Shown here: positions 2,778 to 20,598 of the stretch, one piece after another
How positions within the stretch are numbered: the first letter of the stretch is position 1
How the letters are laid out: the number at the start of each line of letters is the position of its first letter
Virus record (IMG/VR): IMGVR_UViG_3300031963_000589
Span: 1-32,338 of that record
Reading direction: 5' to 3' (one strand)
Origin: a virus
Length of the DNA stretch: 32,338 nt
Position numbers and translations under genes: made by a program
Notes under the pieces: generated by a model
Database searches by the model: none
What the model saw: the letters and a program-made list of their open reading frames with translations, nothing else
What the model was told of the DNA's origin: nothing

Positions 2778-2873
2778 ATGGATAAAACTGAACTAAAACT
2801 TAGACAAATGTATCTTGATACAGCGAAAAAGATTGTTGCTTTTAATAGAGCAAGACATTTCGGACATTGTTAA
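2778..2873 (+). CDS. Possible 31-residue small protein
   Basis: A short frame (MDKTELKLRQMY... to ...RHFGHC) starts 2 bases after the ahpD stop and ends just before the tmRNA acceptor half. It is basic and helical in character, and no family is recognised. The tight spacing is like its upstream neighbours, but there is no clear ribosome binding site. The stretch could instead be leader sequence of the tmRNA precursor. Confidence 0.35.
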   Translation: MDKTELKLRQMYLDTAKKIVAFNRARHFGHC

Positions 2874-2877
2874 GAAT

Positions 2878-2940
2878 TGTTGTAATCCCTTCAAAGCGAA
2901 GGAGTTCTGGACGGGAGTTCGATTCTCCCCACCTCCACCA
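2878..2940 (+). other. tmRNA acceptor piece (3' half of the tRNA-like domain)
   Basis: This piece carries TGTTGT (2878-2883), which can pair with GCAACA (3041-3046) in the coding piece as a candidate P2 helix. It also has a 5-bp CCTTC/GAAGG hairpin (2888-2902), the T-arm, the 3' acceptor strand, discriminator A2937 and an encoded CCA. There is no D-arm or anticodon arm, so it is not an independent tRNA. The 5' end of the piece is uncertain. Confidence 0.85.
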
Positions 2941-3000
2941 AAAGTATTATCGTCCCACACCAGACAATTAAAGTCGAAATGTCGTGATAATTCTTCTGAT

Positions 3001-3190
3001 GGGGGTGACTAGGTTTCGACAGGGCTAGATAGTAGAGACGGCAACACGGGAATGTGAAACCCGCAGGATTGGGGAAACTCGGTCGAAGAAGCAAAACAAA
3101 GTAAACGCAAACGATGAAGTTTACGCATTGGCAGCTTAATTGCTGACTAGGGTTTCGATGGATGAACCTCGTAACAGAATCATCCATCAT
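3001..3190 (+). other. tmRNA coding piece (5' half, tag reading frame, 3' hairpin)
   Basis: It opens with the conserved tmRNA 5' end, including the D-loop-like GGTTTCGAC. A CGGG/CCCG helix (3047-3050 with 3060-3063) follows in the place of pseudoknot PK1. The resume codon is GCA at 3107 and the stop is TAA at 3137. A 9-bp hairpin, GATGGATGA/TCATCCATC (3157-3165 with 3180-3188), closes the piece, as expected for the 3' end of a coding RNA. The exact end lies near 3188-3196. Confidence 0.85.
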
Positions 3191-3234
3191 CTATACAGTT
3201 TTTAATTTTCGAAAGGTAGTAATTCTTAACTTAT

Positions 3235-14038: not shown

Positions 14039-14066
14039 TTGACATAAATTAAAGAACTTGTATAAT
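14039..14066 (+). promoter_or_regulatory. Sigma70-type promoter
   Basis: Perfect TTGACA (14039-14044) and TATAAT (14061-14066) with a 16-base spacer. It begins at the stop codon of the preceding gene and would transcribe the structured leader 14073-14137 and the MazG-like gene. Confidence 0.8.
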
Positions 14067-14574: not shown

Positions 14575-14603
14575 TTGACATAAAAAAGAAATAGTAGTAT
14601 AAT
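14575..14603 (+). promoter_or_regulatory. Perfect sigma70 consensus promoter for the tRNA cluster
   Basis: TTGACA (14575-14580), a 17-base spacer and TATAAT (14598-14603): both boxes and the spacing match the ideal. The start point should be near 14610, giving the structured RNA and the following tRNAs. It is the strongest promoter in the window by sequence. Confidence 0.9.
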
Positions 14604-14609
14604 ATAAGT

Positions 14610-14745
14610 TCAGAAGACCTCTATAAATCTTGTGTCGAATCGCAAGTTTGAGGCAAAGTAGGGTGGGGGAGTGAGCGGGATCGTCACGCCTATTCTTAAA
14701 TAACAGCCGACAGTCGGGATGACTCTCATCGTGCCCCTTGTGATT
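14610..14745 (+). ncRNA. Candidate structured non-coding RNA leading the tRNA cluster
   Basis: About 136 bases between the promoter and tRNA-Gly contain no open frame of note on the plus strand but several nested stems. These are CCTC/GAGG (14618-14621 with 14650-14653) enclosing CTTGTG/CGCAAG (14629-14634 with 14641-14646); GTGA/TCAC (14671 and 14684); CCGA/TCGG (14707 and 14714); GATGA/TCATC (14718-14730); and GGGG (14665-14668) with CCCC (14734-14737) enclosing the last three. It is more GC-rich than its surroundings. No known RNA family was recognised; it may be only a leader removed during tRNA processing. Confidence 0.45.
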
Positions 14746-14746
14746 T

Positions 14747-14820
14747 GCGGGATTAGTTTAATGGTAAAACTACAGATTTCCAATCTGTTGTCGTCAGTTC
14801 GATTCTGACATTCCGCTCCA
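14747..14820 (+). tRNA. tRNA-Gly(TCC)
   Basis: Acceptor stem GCGGGAT/ATTCCGC, anticodon stem ACAGA/TCTGT with loop TTTCCAA (anticodon TCC at 14779-14781), T-stem GTCAG/CTGAC, encoded CCA. Confidence 0.93.
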
Positions 14821-14829
14821 TTGTATAAC

Positions 14830-14914
14830 GGAGATGTAGGAAAATTGGTAACCCCAGCTGACTGTAAATCAGCCACCTCTGGTACTGCTTGTTCGACTCA
14901 AGCCATCTCCACCA
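14830..14914 (+). tRNA. tRNA-Tyr(GTA)
   Basis: Acceptor stem GGAGATG/CATCTCC, anticodon stem GCTGA/TCAGC with loop CTGTAAA (anticodon GTA at 14864-14866), and a long variable arm as expected for bacterial tRNA-Tyr. CCA is encoded. Confidence 0.93.
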
Positions 14915-14929
14915 GATTAAATTTTTTGA

Positions 14930-15006
14930 CGCAGAGTATGGAAGTGGTCTATCCGCTTGGTCTCATAAGCCGAGAATCGCAGGTTCGAATCCTGCCTCTG
15001 CAACCA
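14930..15006 (+). tRNA. Initiator-like tRNA-fMet(CAT)
   Basis: Counting back from the encoded CCA (15004-15006), the T-arm (GCAGG TTCGAAT CCTGC) and 7 acceptor bases place C14930 at position 1 and A15002 at position 72. This is the unpaired C1 x A72 that marks bacterial initiator tRNA. The D-stem pair 11:24 is G:C, a purine-pyrimidine pair as in initiators. The anticodon stem TTGGT/GCCGA around CTCATAA has only two of the three initiator G-C pairs, the third being T-G. An atypical initiator is the best reading. Confidence 0.8.
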
Positions 15007-15012
15007 GTTTGT

Positions 15013-15088
15013 TGTCTAGTAGCTCAGTCGGTAGAGTAGGTGACTGTTAATCACTTGGTCGGTGGTTCGAGCCCACCCTAGACAGCCA
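15013..15088 (+). tRNA. tRNA-Asn(GTT)
   Basis: Acceptor stem TGTCTAG/CTAGACA, anticodon stem GTGA/TCAC with loop CTGTTAA (anticodon GTT at 15046-15048), discriminator G, encoded CCA. Confidence 0.93.
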
Positions 15089-15093
15089 GTTTT

Positions 15094-15167
15094 GCCCTGT
15101 TAGTTAAATGGTATAACAGTTGATTTGTAATCATCAATTGGCAGTTCGATTCTGTCACGGGGCACCA
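15094..15167 (+). tRNA. tRNA-Thr(TGT)
   Basis: Acceptor stem GCCCTGT/ACGGGGC, anticodon loop TTTGTAA with anticodon TGT (15126-15128), encoded CCA. The anticodon stem GTTGA/TCATC has one T-T mismatch. Confidence 0.9.
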
Positions 15168-15172
15168 AGTAA

Positions 15173-15249
15173 CCGAGTGTAGCGCAGTCTGGTAGCGCAT
15201 CTGCTTTGGGAGCAGAGGGTCGCAGGTTCGAACCCTGCCACTCGGACCA
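15173..15249 (+). tRNA. tRNA-Pro(TGG)
   Basis: Acceptor stem CCGAGTG/CACTCGG, anticodon stem TCTGC/GCAGA with loop TTTGGGA (anticodon TGG at 15207-15209), encoded CCA. Confidence 0.94.
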
Positions 15250-15265
15250 TTTTATAGGAGATATA

Positions 15266-15868
15266 GTGAAGTTAGAAAATATATTTTCCAGCTTTGTTAC
15301 TACAGATATTCTTGATATAGATAACGACAGTATCTACAGTTATTGTAAACAAATTCAAAAAGAGAGGGGTCTTGACGATGTACATCAGCACCACCTTTCA
15401 ATGCATGAACCTGAGATGATTGAGTTGTATAATGCGATTGAGCAAAGACTTCCAGTATTAAATCAGATGTTTGCTCTTAAAGACGGCATTGAGCAGAGAC
15501 TATTCAATGGTTGGGTTAATTATGAGACAGGTAAAACTATTGTAAAACCACATAATCATGCTAGGCAATTTTTAACAATAGTTTATTATGTTTATGCATC
15601 GAAAAATAGTGGTGAGTTATATTTGATGAATCCTAATGATTCCCATACATATGTTGTTCCTTCTACTCATCGTGGACATGCGTGTAAAGAATGGAATGAA
15701 TATAATAATGCAATTCACATTATCAAACCAGAGCCAAAAAAATTAGTAATATTTCCTAGCTGGATATTCCACTATGTAGTTCCATGTAACACTGAAAGAA
15801 TTTCAGTCGCATTTAACACTAGATTATTTGCAGGTTCGTACGATTTAAATTCAGCATTAGGTATGTAA
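15266..15868 (+). CDS. 2OG-Fe(II) oxygenase inside the tRNA cluster
   Basis: A 200-residue protein starting with GTG after an AGGAGA site. The C-terminal half fits the phage 2OG-Fe(II) oxygenase group with a W-V-N strand (83-85), His96-x-His98 in KPHNHARQF, a Y-Y-V strand, a Gly-x-L-x-x-x-NP turn (116-123), then LVIFPSWIFHYVVP with distal His169 and RISVAFN with Arg178. The second metal ligand may be His98 instead of the usual Asp. It lies between tRNA-Pro and tRNA-Arg and ends 6 bases before the next tRNA, so it is carried on the tRNA transcript. The substrate is unknown. Confidence 0.8.
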   Translation: MKLENIFSSFVTTDILDIDNDSIYSYCKQIQKERGLDDVHQHHLSMHEPEMIELYNAIEQRLPVLNQMFALKDGIEQRLFNGWVNYETGKTIVKPHNHARQFLTIVYYVYASKNSGELYLMNPNDSHTYVVPSTHRGHACKEWNEYNNAIHIIKPEPKKLVIFPSWIFHYVVPCNTERISVAFNTRLFAGSYDLNSALGM

Positions 15869-15874
15869 GTATTT

Positions 15875-15950
15875 GTCGCCATAGTTCAGTGGATAGAACA
15901 ACAGCCTTCTAAGCTGTGGGTCGGGGGTTCGATCCCCTCTGGCGACGCCA
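15875..15950 (+). tRNA. tRNA-Arg(TCT)
   Basis: Acceptor stem GTCGCCA/TGGCGAC, anticodon stem ACAGC/GCTGT with loop CTTCTAA (anticodon TCT at 15908-15910), encoded CCA. It reads AGA/AGG, codons that are frequent in this AT-rich genome. Confidence 0.94.
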
Positions 15951-15956
15951 AATTAT

Positions 15957-16043
15957 GGAAGATGTGTTGCAAGGTGCGACAGGAGTTTGCTAAACTCTCG
16001 TTCAGAAATGGGCTGACAGGTTCGATTCCTGTATCTTCCGCCA
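15957..16043 (+). tRNA. tRNA-Ser(GCT)
   Basis: Acceptor stem GGAAGAT/ATCTTCC, anticodon loop TTGCTAA (anticodon GCT at 15989-15991), long variable arm, discriminator G, encoded CCA. Confidence 0.93.
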
Positions 16044-16049
16044 AATTAT

Positions 16050-16137
16050 GGAGAGTTGGTCGAGTGGTCTATGGCGCTAGTCTTGAAAACTAGAGACTCG
16101 AAAGGGTCCGTGAGTTCGAATCTCACACTCTCCGCCA
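16050..16137 (+). tRNA. tRNA-Ser(TGA)
   Basis: Acceptor stem GGAGAGT/ACTCTCC, anticodon stem CTAGT/ACTAG with loop CTTGAAA (anticodon TGA at 16084-16086), long variable arm, discriminator G, encoded CCA. Confidence 0.94.
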
Positions 16138-16158
16138 GATAAAAATAGTAATAATATT

Positions 16159-16233
16159 GGGCTGGTAGCTTAATGGTAAAGCGTTCGACTCATAATCGAT
16201 TGAGTGAGAGTTCAATTCTCTCCCAGCCCACCA
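16159..16233 (+). tRNA. tRNA(CAT), elongator Met or Ile2
   Basis: Acceptor stem GGGCTGG/CCAGCCC is fully paired, so this is not an initiator. The anticodon loop is CTCATAA with CAT at 16201-16203, and CCA is encoded. A CAT anticodon with C34 converted to lysidine would make it an AUA-reading tRNA-Ile2; the sequence alone does not decide. Confidence 0.9.
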
Positions 16234-16243
16234 AGGAGATAAA

Positions 16244-16777
16244 ATGCAAGTAGATGATTATCTAAAAGTATTTAATGTTATTCCTAGCACAGTATGTCAG
16301 GAATTAATAAAAGAATATGATAGTGATCCAGAGTGGCAACAACATAAATGGTATACTGCTGCAGACGACACTAAATCTTCTTTACATAATAAAGAACTTG
16401 ATGTATTGTATCACAAAAAATTAACTGTATTAGAACAGTATCTAGCACAAGCATTGATGGGATATTATAATGAAACTGGTCTTAAAGATCTAGTGACATA
16501 TCATGGACCCATTAGACTTAACAAATATAAAACTGGAACAGTTATGTCACAGCATTTTGATTTAATCCGTAGAAATAAAAATGATGGTATACCTGTTTTG
16601 ACATTTCTTGGATTAATGAATGAAGATTTCGAAGGCGGAGAGTTTGTTGTAAGAGATAAAGTAGTAGAATTTAAACAAGGCGACATTATGATTTTTCCAT
16701 CAACATTCATATACCCCCACAGAGTAGAGGAAATAACTAAGGGTACACGATATTCGTTCGTAGCATGGGCATATTAA
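16244..16777 (+). CDS. 2OG-Fe(II) oxygenase, prolyl-4-hydroxylase-like
   Basis: A 177-residue protein of the P4H/PKHD type. His104-x-Asp106 in MSQHFDLI, a Gly-Gly turn after FLGLMNEDFEGGEF (131-132), GDIMIFPS, the distal His159 (YPHRVE) and Arg169 (GTRYSF) give the complete iron and 2-oxoglutarate set. An AGGAG directly follows the CCA of the tRNA at 16233, and the stop falls one base before tRNA-Leu, so it is embedded in the tRNA transcript. The substrate is unknown: related host enzymes hydroxylate proteins, including ribosomal ones, which makes translation-related targets conceivable but unproven. Confidence 0.87.
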   Translation: MQVDDYLKVFNVIPSTVCQELIKEYDSDPEWQQHKWYTAADDTKSSLHNKELDVLYHKKLTVLEQYLAQALMGYYNETGLKDLVTYHGPIRLNKYKTGTVMSQHFDLIRRNKNDGIPVLTFLGLMNEDFEGGEFVVRDKVVEFKQGDIMIFPSTFIYPHRVEEITKGTRYSFVAWAY

Positions 16778-16778
16778 A

Positions 16779-16862
16779 GCGAGTGTGGTGGAATGGTATA
16801 CACAGGAGACTTAAAATCTCCCGTCTTTGGACATGAGGGTTCGAATCCCTCCACTCGCACCA
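16779..16862 (+). tRNA. tRNA-Leu(TAA)
   Basis: Acceptor stem GCGAGTG/CACTCGC, anticodon stem GGAGA/TCTCC with loop CTTAAAA (anticodon TAA at 16812-16814), long variable arm, encoded CCA. It is the last tRNA of the cluster. Confidence 0.94.
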
Positions 16863-20005: not shown

Positions 20006-20027
20006 GGGAGCTTCGGCTCCCTTTTTT
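20006..20027. terminator. Strong bidirectional terminator between gene 32 and the minus-strand block
   Basis: GGGAGC-TTCG-GCTCCC: a 6-bp GC-rich stem on a stable UUCG tetraloop, followed by TTTTTT on the plus strand and by a T-rich run (TTTCTTTTT) on the minus strand. It can terminate both convergent units. Confidence 0.95.
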
Positions 20028-20598
20028 ATTTCCAGCAAGGTCCAGTATAATCAATGAATAACATATATCTGGTACCTTTGAGTATTGGGGTTATTTCTGT
20101 TCGCTTCATACATGGCCAAAACATAAGGTAACCTCTTTCTCTTCTTTGCGCTAATGTTGGTATAGCTGTCCAAAAATTATATAAAATTATTTCTGATCCC
20201 TCATATTCATTGCCAGGTGTTAGATTAACGCATGCGAATATTTTATTGTGTCTATCTTTTGATAACCAATTAATCCTTGCGCATTGCGAGATAAAAGATT
20301 TTTCATCACCATCAAATTTCATTATTCGAGCTTCTAAAGTATAATCAGTATCTAGAAAAAACATTGTTTCATTTGCTGTTTTGACAACATCTGTAATTCT
20401 GTCAAGCAGTGTGCGAATACCCTCATCGTTAGTGTCAATTTCAGTTTCTGTCGATATTTGTTTTATTGTTCTTACTACAGGAAGTGATTGATTTCTAAAC
20501 TTCGATCTCTCAAAAGATTTGTCTTTATGCAAATCAATTATATACTGACACTCCGTGTCACTCAATAAATTGCTTTCAAAAACAATATCTGATATCAT
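20026..20598 (-). CDS. 2OG-oxygenase-fold protein lacking the metal ligands
   Basis: A 190-residue protein. The C-terminal half follows the P4H-like pattern: NEYEGSEIILYNF (132-142), RGYLMFWPCMKR, then P-x-x-K-G-T-R-Y (Arg177) as in active enzymes. The HxD expected near residue 104 is Q-C-A, and the distal His expected near 165 is Lys/Arg. It is therefore probably not an iron enzyme; it may be a binding or structural relative. It is the last gene of the block, converging on gene 32. Homology to the oxygenases is inferred from pattern only. Confidence 0.65.
   Translation of the reverse strand: MISDIVFESNLLSDTECQYIIDLHKDKSFERSKFRNQSLPVVRTIKQISTETEIDTNDEGIRTLLDRITDVVKTANETMFFLDTDYTLEARIMKFDGDEKSFISQCARINWLSKDRHNKIFACVNLTPGNEYEGSEIILYNFWTAIPTLAQRRERGYLMFWPCMKRTEITPILKGTRYMLFIDYTGPCWK

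Follow-up and report, generated by a model that had tools for sequence, protein, structure and literature searches.

A phage-encoded tRNA of the bacterial initiator type with a U31·G39 anticodon stem that recurs among phage initiators

The stretch of DNA analysed here (the window) comprises positions 1 to 32,338 of IMG/VR virus record IMGVR_UViG_3300031963_000589, a 32,338-base record from a T4-type myophage of the Melnitz/HTVC008M kind; its ssDNA-binding protein is closest to those of Methylophilales phage Melnitz (55%) and Pelagibacter phage HTVC008M (51%). ARAGORN and Rfam locate 12 tRNA genes and a permuted tmRNA in the window, and the features of the tRNA array are collected in Table 1. 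The two-piece tmRNA (2827-3230, plus strand) matches the Rfam families beta_tmRNA and tmRNA_permuted, with the tag ANDEVYALAA according to ARAGORN. Phage Melnitz, for which a permuted tmRNA is likewise reported, has four tRNAs, the types named being Arg, Leu, and Trp (PMC9004378).

The promoter upstream of the first tRNA block agrees with the sigma-70 consensus at every position scored, although scans of this kind also yield weaker sites by chance. The spacer between this promoter and the array (14606-14746) gave no structure signal (z = 0.12). A second perfect TTGACA/TATAAT site was observed at 14039-14066 (plus strand); together the two sites span about 560 bases and flank a MazG-like gene and tRNA-Cys. 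Two 2OG-Fe(II) oxygenase genes (15266-15868 and 16244-16777) are situated within the array, and an ORF at 20026-20598 (minus strand) that resembles 2OG-Fe(II) oxygenases is a candidate third.

Table 1. Features of the tRNA array and of the putative initiator tRNA; coordinates are those of the window.
Feature	Position	Strand	Basis
Promoter TTGACA-17-TATAAT, 12/12 consensus, sigma-70-type, upstream of the Gly/Tyr/iMet/Asn/Thr/Pro block	14575..14603	+	promoter scan
tRNA block Gly(tcc) Tyr(gta) iMet(cat) Asn(gtt) Thr(tgt) Pro(tgg)	14747..15249	+	ARAGORN
Initiator-class tRNA(CAU), phage-encoded, CCA encoded	14930..15006	+	ARAGORN, Rfam, cloverleaf assignment, profile test
C1, mismatched with A72 (15002); then G2:C71, C3:G70; A73 at 15003	14930	+	cloverleaf; determinants per PMC9976931
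G11, paired to C24 (14954), the R11:Y24 of initiators	14940	+	cloverleaf
G29 and G30, paired to C41 (14971) and C40 (14970); pairs read by 16S rRNA G1338/A1339	14959..14960	+	cloverleaf and structure literature
U31, wobble with G39 (14969), replacing G31:C39	14961	+	cloverleaf
A38-G39, counterpart of the A38/C39 step at which enteric VapC cleaves tRNAfMet	14968..14969	+	cloverleaf; PMC4105405
Second part of array: Arg(tct) Ser(gct) Ser(tga) Ile2-type(cat) Leu(taa); 2OG-Fe(II) oxygenase gene within	15875..16862	+	ARAGORN for tRNAs
Second CAT tRNA, G1:C72, C11:G24: Ile2 type (AUA-decoding, lysidine), not elongator Met	16159..16233	+	cloverleaf, profile

ARAGORN calls a tRNA-Met(cat) at exactly 14930-15006, and the same span matches the Rfam tRNA family with 48.9 bits (E=1e-7), the lowest Rfam score of all tRNAs in the window. 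The original prediction, that this is a phage tRNA with the C1×A72 mismatch of bacterial initiators, is confirmed by the cloverleaf assignment: the acceptor stem (positions 1-7 CGCAGAG, 66-72 CTCTGCA) consists of C1×A72 and six standard pairs, followed by A73 and CCA. The T-arm and the encoded CCA set the ends, as had been proposed, and a one-base shift still leaves positions 1 and 72 unpaired (base -1 and base 73 are both A). In the D stem (10-13 TGGA, 22-25 TCCG), U10·G25, G12:C23, and A13:U22 accompany the predicted purine-pyrimidine pair, which is G11:C24. The anticodon stem (27-31 TTGGT, 39-43 GCCGA) contains U27:A43, U28·G42, G29:C41, G30:C40, and U31·G39; two G-C pairs and a third, T-G position were thus read correctly. 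Features that had gone unnoted are U10·G25 and C26 opposite G44. At the position of the minor determinant G4:C69, the tRNA has A4:U69. The D and anticodon arms of the cloverleaf did not emerge from thermodynamic folding alone.

The determinants of formylation and of exclusion from elongation are an open 1:72 end, G2:C71, C3:G70, A73, and R11:Y24 (PMC9976931, PMC11231383). All are present in the window tRNA, together with the CAU anticodon. The full 3GC stem (29:41, 30:40, 31:39) is represented by two of its three pairs, 31:39 being U·G, and the tRNA is therefore a variant of the tRNAfMet class and not a canonical member. Compared with bacterial tRNAfMet (E. coli metZWV/metY), it shares CAU, C1×A72, G2:C71, C3:G70, A73, R11:Y24, G29:C41, G30:C40, and the encoded CCA, but has U31·G39 for G31:C39 as well as A4:U69, U10·G25, and C26 opposite G44.

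Profiles were built from bacterial CAU tRNAs in small Pseudomonadota sets (23 initiators, 7 elongator-Met, and 16 Ile2). The window tRNA scored -13.3 bits as an initiator, -31.5 as an elongator, and -49.8 as Ile2, so that the initiator class is favoured although even the best absolute score is negative. When the hallmark positions were removed, the initiator score was -5.4 versus -8.9 and the margin fell to 3.5 bits; the class assignment therefore rests mainly on the known determinants. The window tRNA lacks the paired 1:72 and Y11:R24 of elongator Met, and also the paired 1:72, C11:G24, and Ile2-type stem of tRNA-Ile2, all of which are found in the second CAT tRNA (Ile2 profile, +14.1 bits). 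No elongator-Met gene is present in the window; the phage thus brings an initiator and an AUA-decoding tRNA. Based on the determinants, the profiles, and close phage relatives of the same form, membership in the bacterial-type initiator class is well supported at the level of sequence, and classification by these small profiles, a check of the kind proposed with the original prediction, came out on the side of initiator and not of elongator Met.

Two other readings of the gene were weighed. An elongator Met or Ile2 tRNA with a chance C·A end would account for the CAU anticodon and for the lack of another elongator-Met gene in the window, but C1×A72, G11:C24, and G30:C40 occur together here, 23 of 23 reference bacterial elongator and Ile2 tRNAs have a paired 1:72 and C11:G24, and the Ile2 role is already taken by the gene at 16159-16233; we regard this reading as very improbable. 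We give just as little credence to a decaying tRNA remnant. The low Rfam score and the wobbles U10·G25, U28·G42, and U31·G39 would fit decay, but near-identical copies with the same U10·G25 and U31·G39 and an intact cloverleaf are found in other viral contigs, and the closest of these (L242) differs by a single base, at position 42, which gives a standard U28:A42. The four nearest viral relatives (L242, 99%; L185, 95%; L138, 87%; L046, 79%) all have U10·G25, G11:C24, C1×A72, and U31·G39. The RNase H-like gene flanking the window array is also present in L185, L138, and L046, with 67-71% protein identity. Across 80 loci surrounding related gp32 genes, many of these loci being short, 9 had any tRNA and in no case was it of the initiator type; the initiator tRNA is therefore an accessory gene, and the gp32 route yielded no orthologues.

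The anticodon stem was surveyed across viral initiators by pattern scans of IMG/VR, one of them blind to the stem and one aimed at U31·G39. Two of the scans are samples of at least 120 matches each, and the patterns match only tRNAs that have a standard T loop and encode their CCA; initiators lacking either are missed on the viral and bacterial sides alike. The main figures come from loci with at least three tRNAs, because contigs with one or two may contain host sequence. Among 42 distinct tRNAs of the stem-blind set in such loci, 31:39 is U·G in 20, G:C in 9, and C:G in 8; when a 1:72 mismatch and R11:Y24 are also demanded, U·G is present in 13 of 20 array tRNAs. Other viral tRNAs in similar loci have U31·G39 in 59 of 1406 cases (4%), chiefly Leu (Fisher p=9e-16 against the 20 of 42). 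The pair 30:40 behaves differently: it is G:C in all 87 of the 87 distinct viral initiator-class tRNAs collected, as compared with 980 of 1406 other viral tRNAs (70%). It stays constant while 29:41 can also be A:U or U:A, and its fixation fits selection for use in the P site. On a poorly resolved tree of 57 columns, G39 changes about 11 times and so looks recurrent, although the resolution is insufficient to establish that these changes arose independently. Two viral loci (L103 and L197) each contain two different initiator-like CAT tRNAs.

Initiator-type tRNAs are also found in cultured phages, namely inny, JohannJBalmer (Bas62, annotated tRNA-fMet), Serratia phage Slocum, Pseudomonas phage pf16, and Agrobacterium phage Atu_ph07. 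Like the window tRNA, these are phage-borne, mostly in arrays, with an unpaired 1:72 and R11:Y24; sequence similarity to the window tRNA is only moderate, and 1:72 is A×A, C×U, or C×C in several. U31·G39 is common to the window tRNA, Slocum, inny, and JohannJBalmer. The last two, phages of E. coli K-12 (L455 1201-1279 and L456 301-379), have the loop UUCAUAU, with A38 also changed to U38 where the window tRNA keeps A38, and ends of C×U72 A73 or C×C72 U73; they offer a ready laboratory system. Initiator-like tRNAs whose acceptor stem has a single additional base on its 3' side occur in Vibrio phage phi-ST2 (L369 1985-2065, CCCACGCA), Sinorhizobium phage Phosso (L370 1490-1566, ACTCCGCA), and Aeromonas phage TS3 (L376 1486-1562, ACTTCGCA), and it looks as if the bulge were a trait that these three have in common. 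Annotation of such genes is uneven: an initiator-like tRNA of Aeromonas phage Ahp1 (L461 276-351; A29:U41, G30:C40, U31·G39) is labelled a tRNA-His pseudogene, and its equivalent in several Vibrio phages bears no annotation.

Bacterial initiators are usually taught to have the 3GC stem almost without exception. Among 200 Pseudomonadota genomes, the initiator pattern was found in 120, with C39 in all of the matches listed save that of one genome (G002) that had been pre-selected for U31·G39; that copy sits in a prophage-like stretch, with terminase-, primase-, and repressor-like ORFs as judged by eye from their translations. An initiator with a base other than A at position 38 was found in none of the 200. 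Searching 84,980 species genomes for initiators with U31·G39 turned up only 42 stretches, many of which lie within large arrays of tRNAs or have positions 1 and 72 paired. The only initiators found in a 7.2 Mb MAG of an uncultured proteobacterium are two tandem U31·G39 copies (L273 7290-7610; G003:C3:327278-327601); the U31·G39 stem therefore probably supports a cell, and the MAG may represent a cellular lineage without G31:C39. Alphaproteobacterial-type initiators (A29:U41/G30:C40/G31:C39) likewise depart naturally from the full 3GC stem and keep G30:C40, but they change 29:41 and retain G31:C39, the reverse of the window tRNA. U31·G39 is thus recurrent in phage initiators and almost absent from bacterial ones, and is neither random nor private to the phage of the window.

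Of the three pairs, G29:C41 and G30:C40 are the required ones according to a review (PMC11231383). In published structures, A-minor contacts join 16S rRNA A1339 and G1338 to 30:40 and 29:41, and none to 31:39 is mentioned; swapping G30:C40 for C:G lowers translation 20-fold (PMC11497404). Since 31:39 lies outside the pairs described as gripped, U31·G39 should be tolerated, and since both pairs read by 16S rRNA are kept, the window tRNA is probably a working initiator. The original description of the stem as incomplete stands in that the third pair is absent; the label misses that both contacted pairs are intact and that U31·G39 recurs in phage initiators.

The proposed order of events is as follows: the tRNA would be transcribed with its array from the host-sigma-70-type promoter, aminoacylated by host MetRS on recognition of CAU, and formylated by host methionyl-tRNA formyltransferase by way of C1×A72, G2:C71, C3:G70, A73, and R11:Y24. 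The open 1:72 end would keep it off EF-Tu, and IF2 would deliver it to the P site of the 30S subunit, with G30:C40 and G29:C41 held by A1339 and G1338. The benefit would probably be that it tops up or replaces host tRNAfMet upon depletion of the host pool, and the change beside the 38/39 bond possibly makes it a poor substrate for VapC-type nucleases. It had also been suggested that a phage initiator could bias the start of translation toward phage messages. Once made, an initiator tRNA becomes part of the shared pool and can read AUG on whatever message is present, so this suggestion is unsupported; no message selectivity was found, nor is a mechanism obvious. It is simpler to suppose that the gene adds to the host tRNAfMet or takes its place.

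Why phages would carry a remodelled initiator is a separate matter. In Shigella, Salmonella, and Leptospira, tRNAfMet is a target of the VapC toxin, and the cut made by the enteric enzymes falls between A38 and C39 (PMC4105405). Evasion of tRNA nucleases by phage tRNAs is an established idea (PMC10264068, PMC11555353). The window tRNA has G39 where Pseudomonadota initiators, among the matches listed, have C39 save in the pre-selected G002. Since bases 38 and 39 flank the cleavage site, nuclease evasion together with topping up of a depleted pool is a plausible reason for the phage initiator. The anticodon-nuclease-evading phage tRNAs described earlier also differ from the host at a known cut site, but their changes lie in other tRNAs, and tRNA-fMet is stated to be generally avoided by phages (PMC10264068). 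In a stronger form of this benefit, phages would carry an initiator mainly because hosts cut tRNAfMet at 38/39 with VapC-type enzymes during infection, the changes at 38 and 39 giving resistance. Initiator-class tRNAs in loci with at least three tRNAs depart from A38-C39 in 14 of 19 (a sample whose membership was reconstructed from locus numbers), whereas Pseudomonadota keep A38 and, among the matches listed, C39; moreover, U38 occurs in 104 viral stretches, and inny and JohannJBalmer change both positions. On the other hand, the recognition rules of the nucleases are described as unknown (PMC10264068), the host of this phage may be without VapC, the window tRNA keeps A38, and some phage initiators keep A38-C39. 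We consider the stronger form rather unlikely. A shade more doubtful still is a phage-owned subclass in which G30:C40 and the formylation end do not vary and 38/39 and 31 are repeatedly remodelled against host nucleases cutting there, so that initiation would move onto a nuclease-proof copy.

Relaxed drift is the more serious competitor, to which we assign somewhat less than an even chance. Selection would then act only on the two pairs contacted by 16S rRNA and on the determinants of formylation, and 31:39 and 38 would have no adaptive meaning. Phage tRNAs do vary widely, and 29:41 varies where 30:40 does not. Against drift, 31:39 is non-random: U·G dominates in arrays (48%) and G·U is nearly absent, while U·G is infrequent in other phage tRNAs, and the changes to G39 appear recurrent. 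Taken as a whole, our preferred reading, a phage-borne initiator of bacterial type in a phage-specific variant form, with the working and benefit proposed above, appears likely from sequence comparison.

What most deserves further work is the broader pattern among phage initiators. Phages appear as a natural experiment on which part of the 3GC stem counts, in which G30:C40 never changes and 29:41 and 31:39 do. The pattern suggests that initiator tRNAs should be called separately, as iMet, in phage genomes, where they are now mostly labelled tRNA-Met, missed, or, in one case, taken for a His pseudogene. It also connects the tRNA genes carried by phages with the nucleases that shut down initiation, a connection that can be tested in isolated phages of E. 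coli K-12 (JohannJBalmer/Bas62 and inny).
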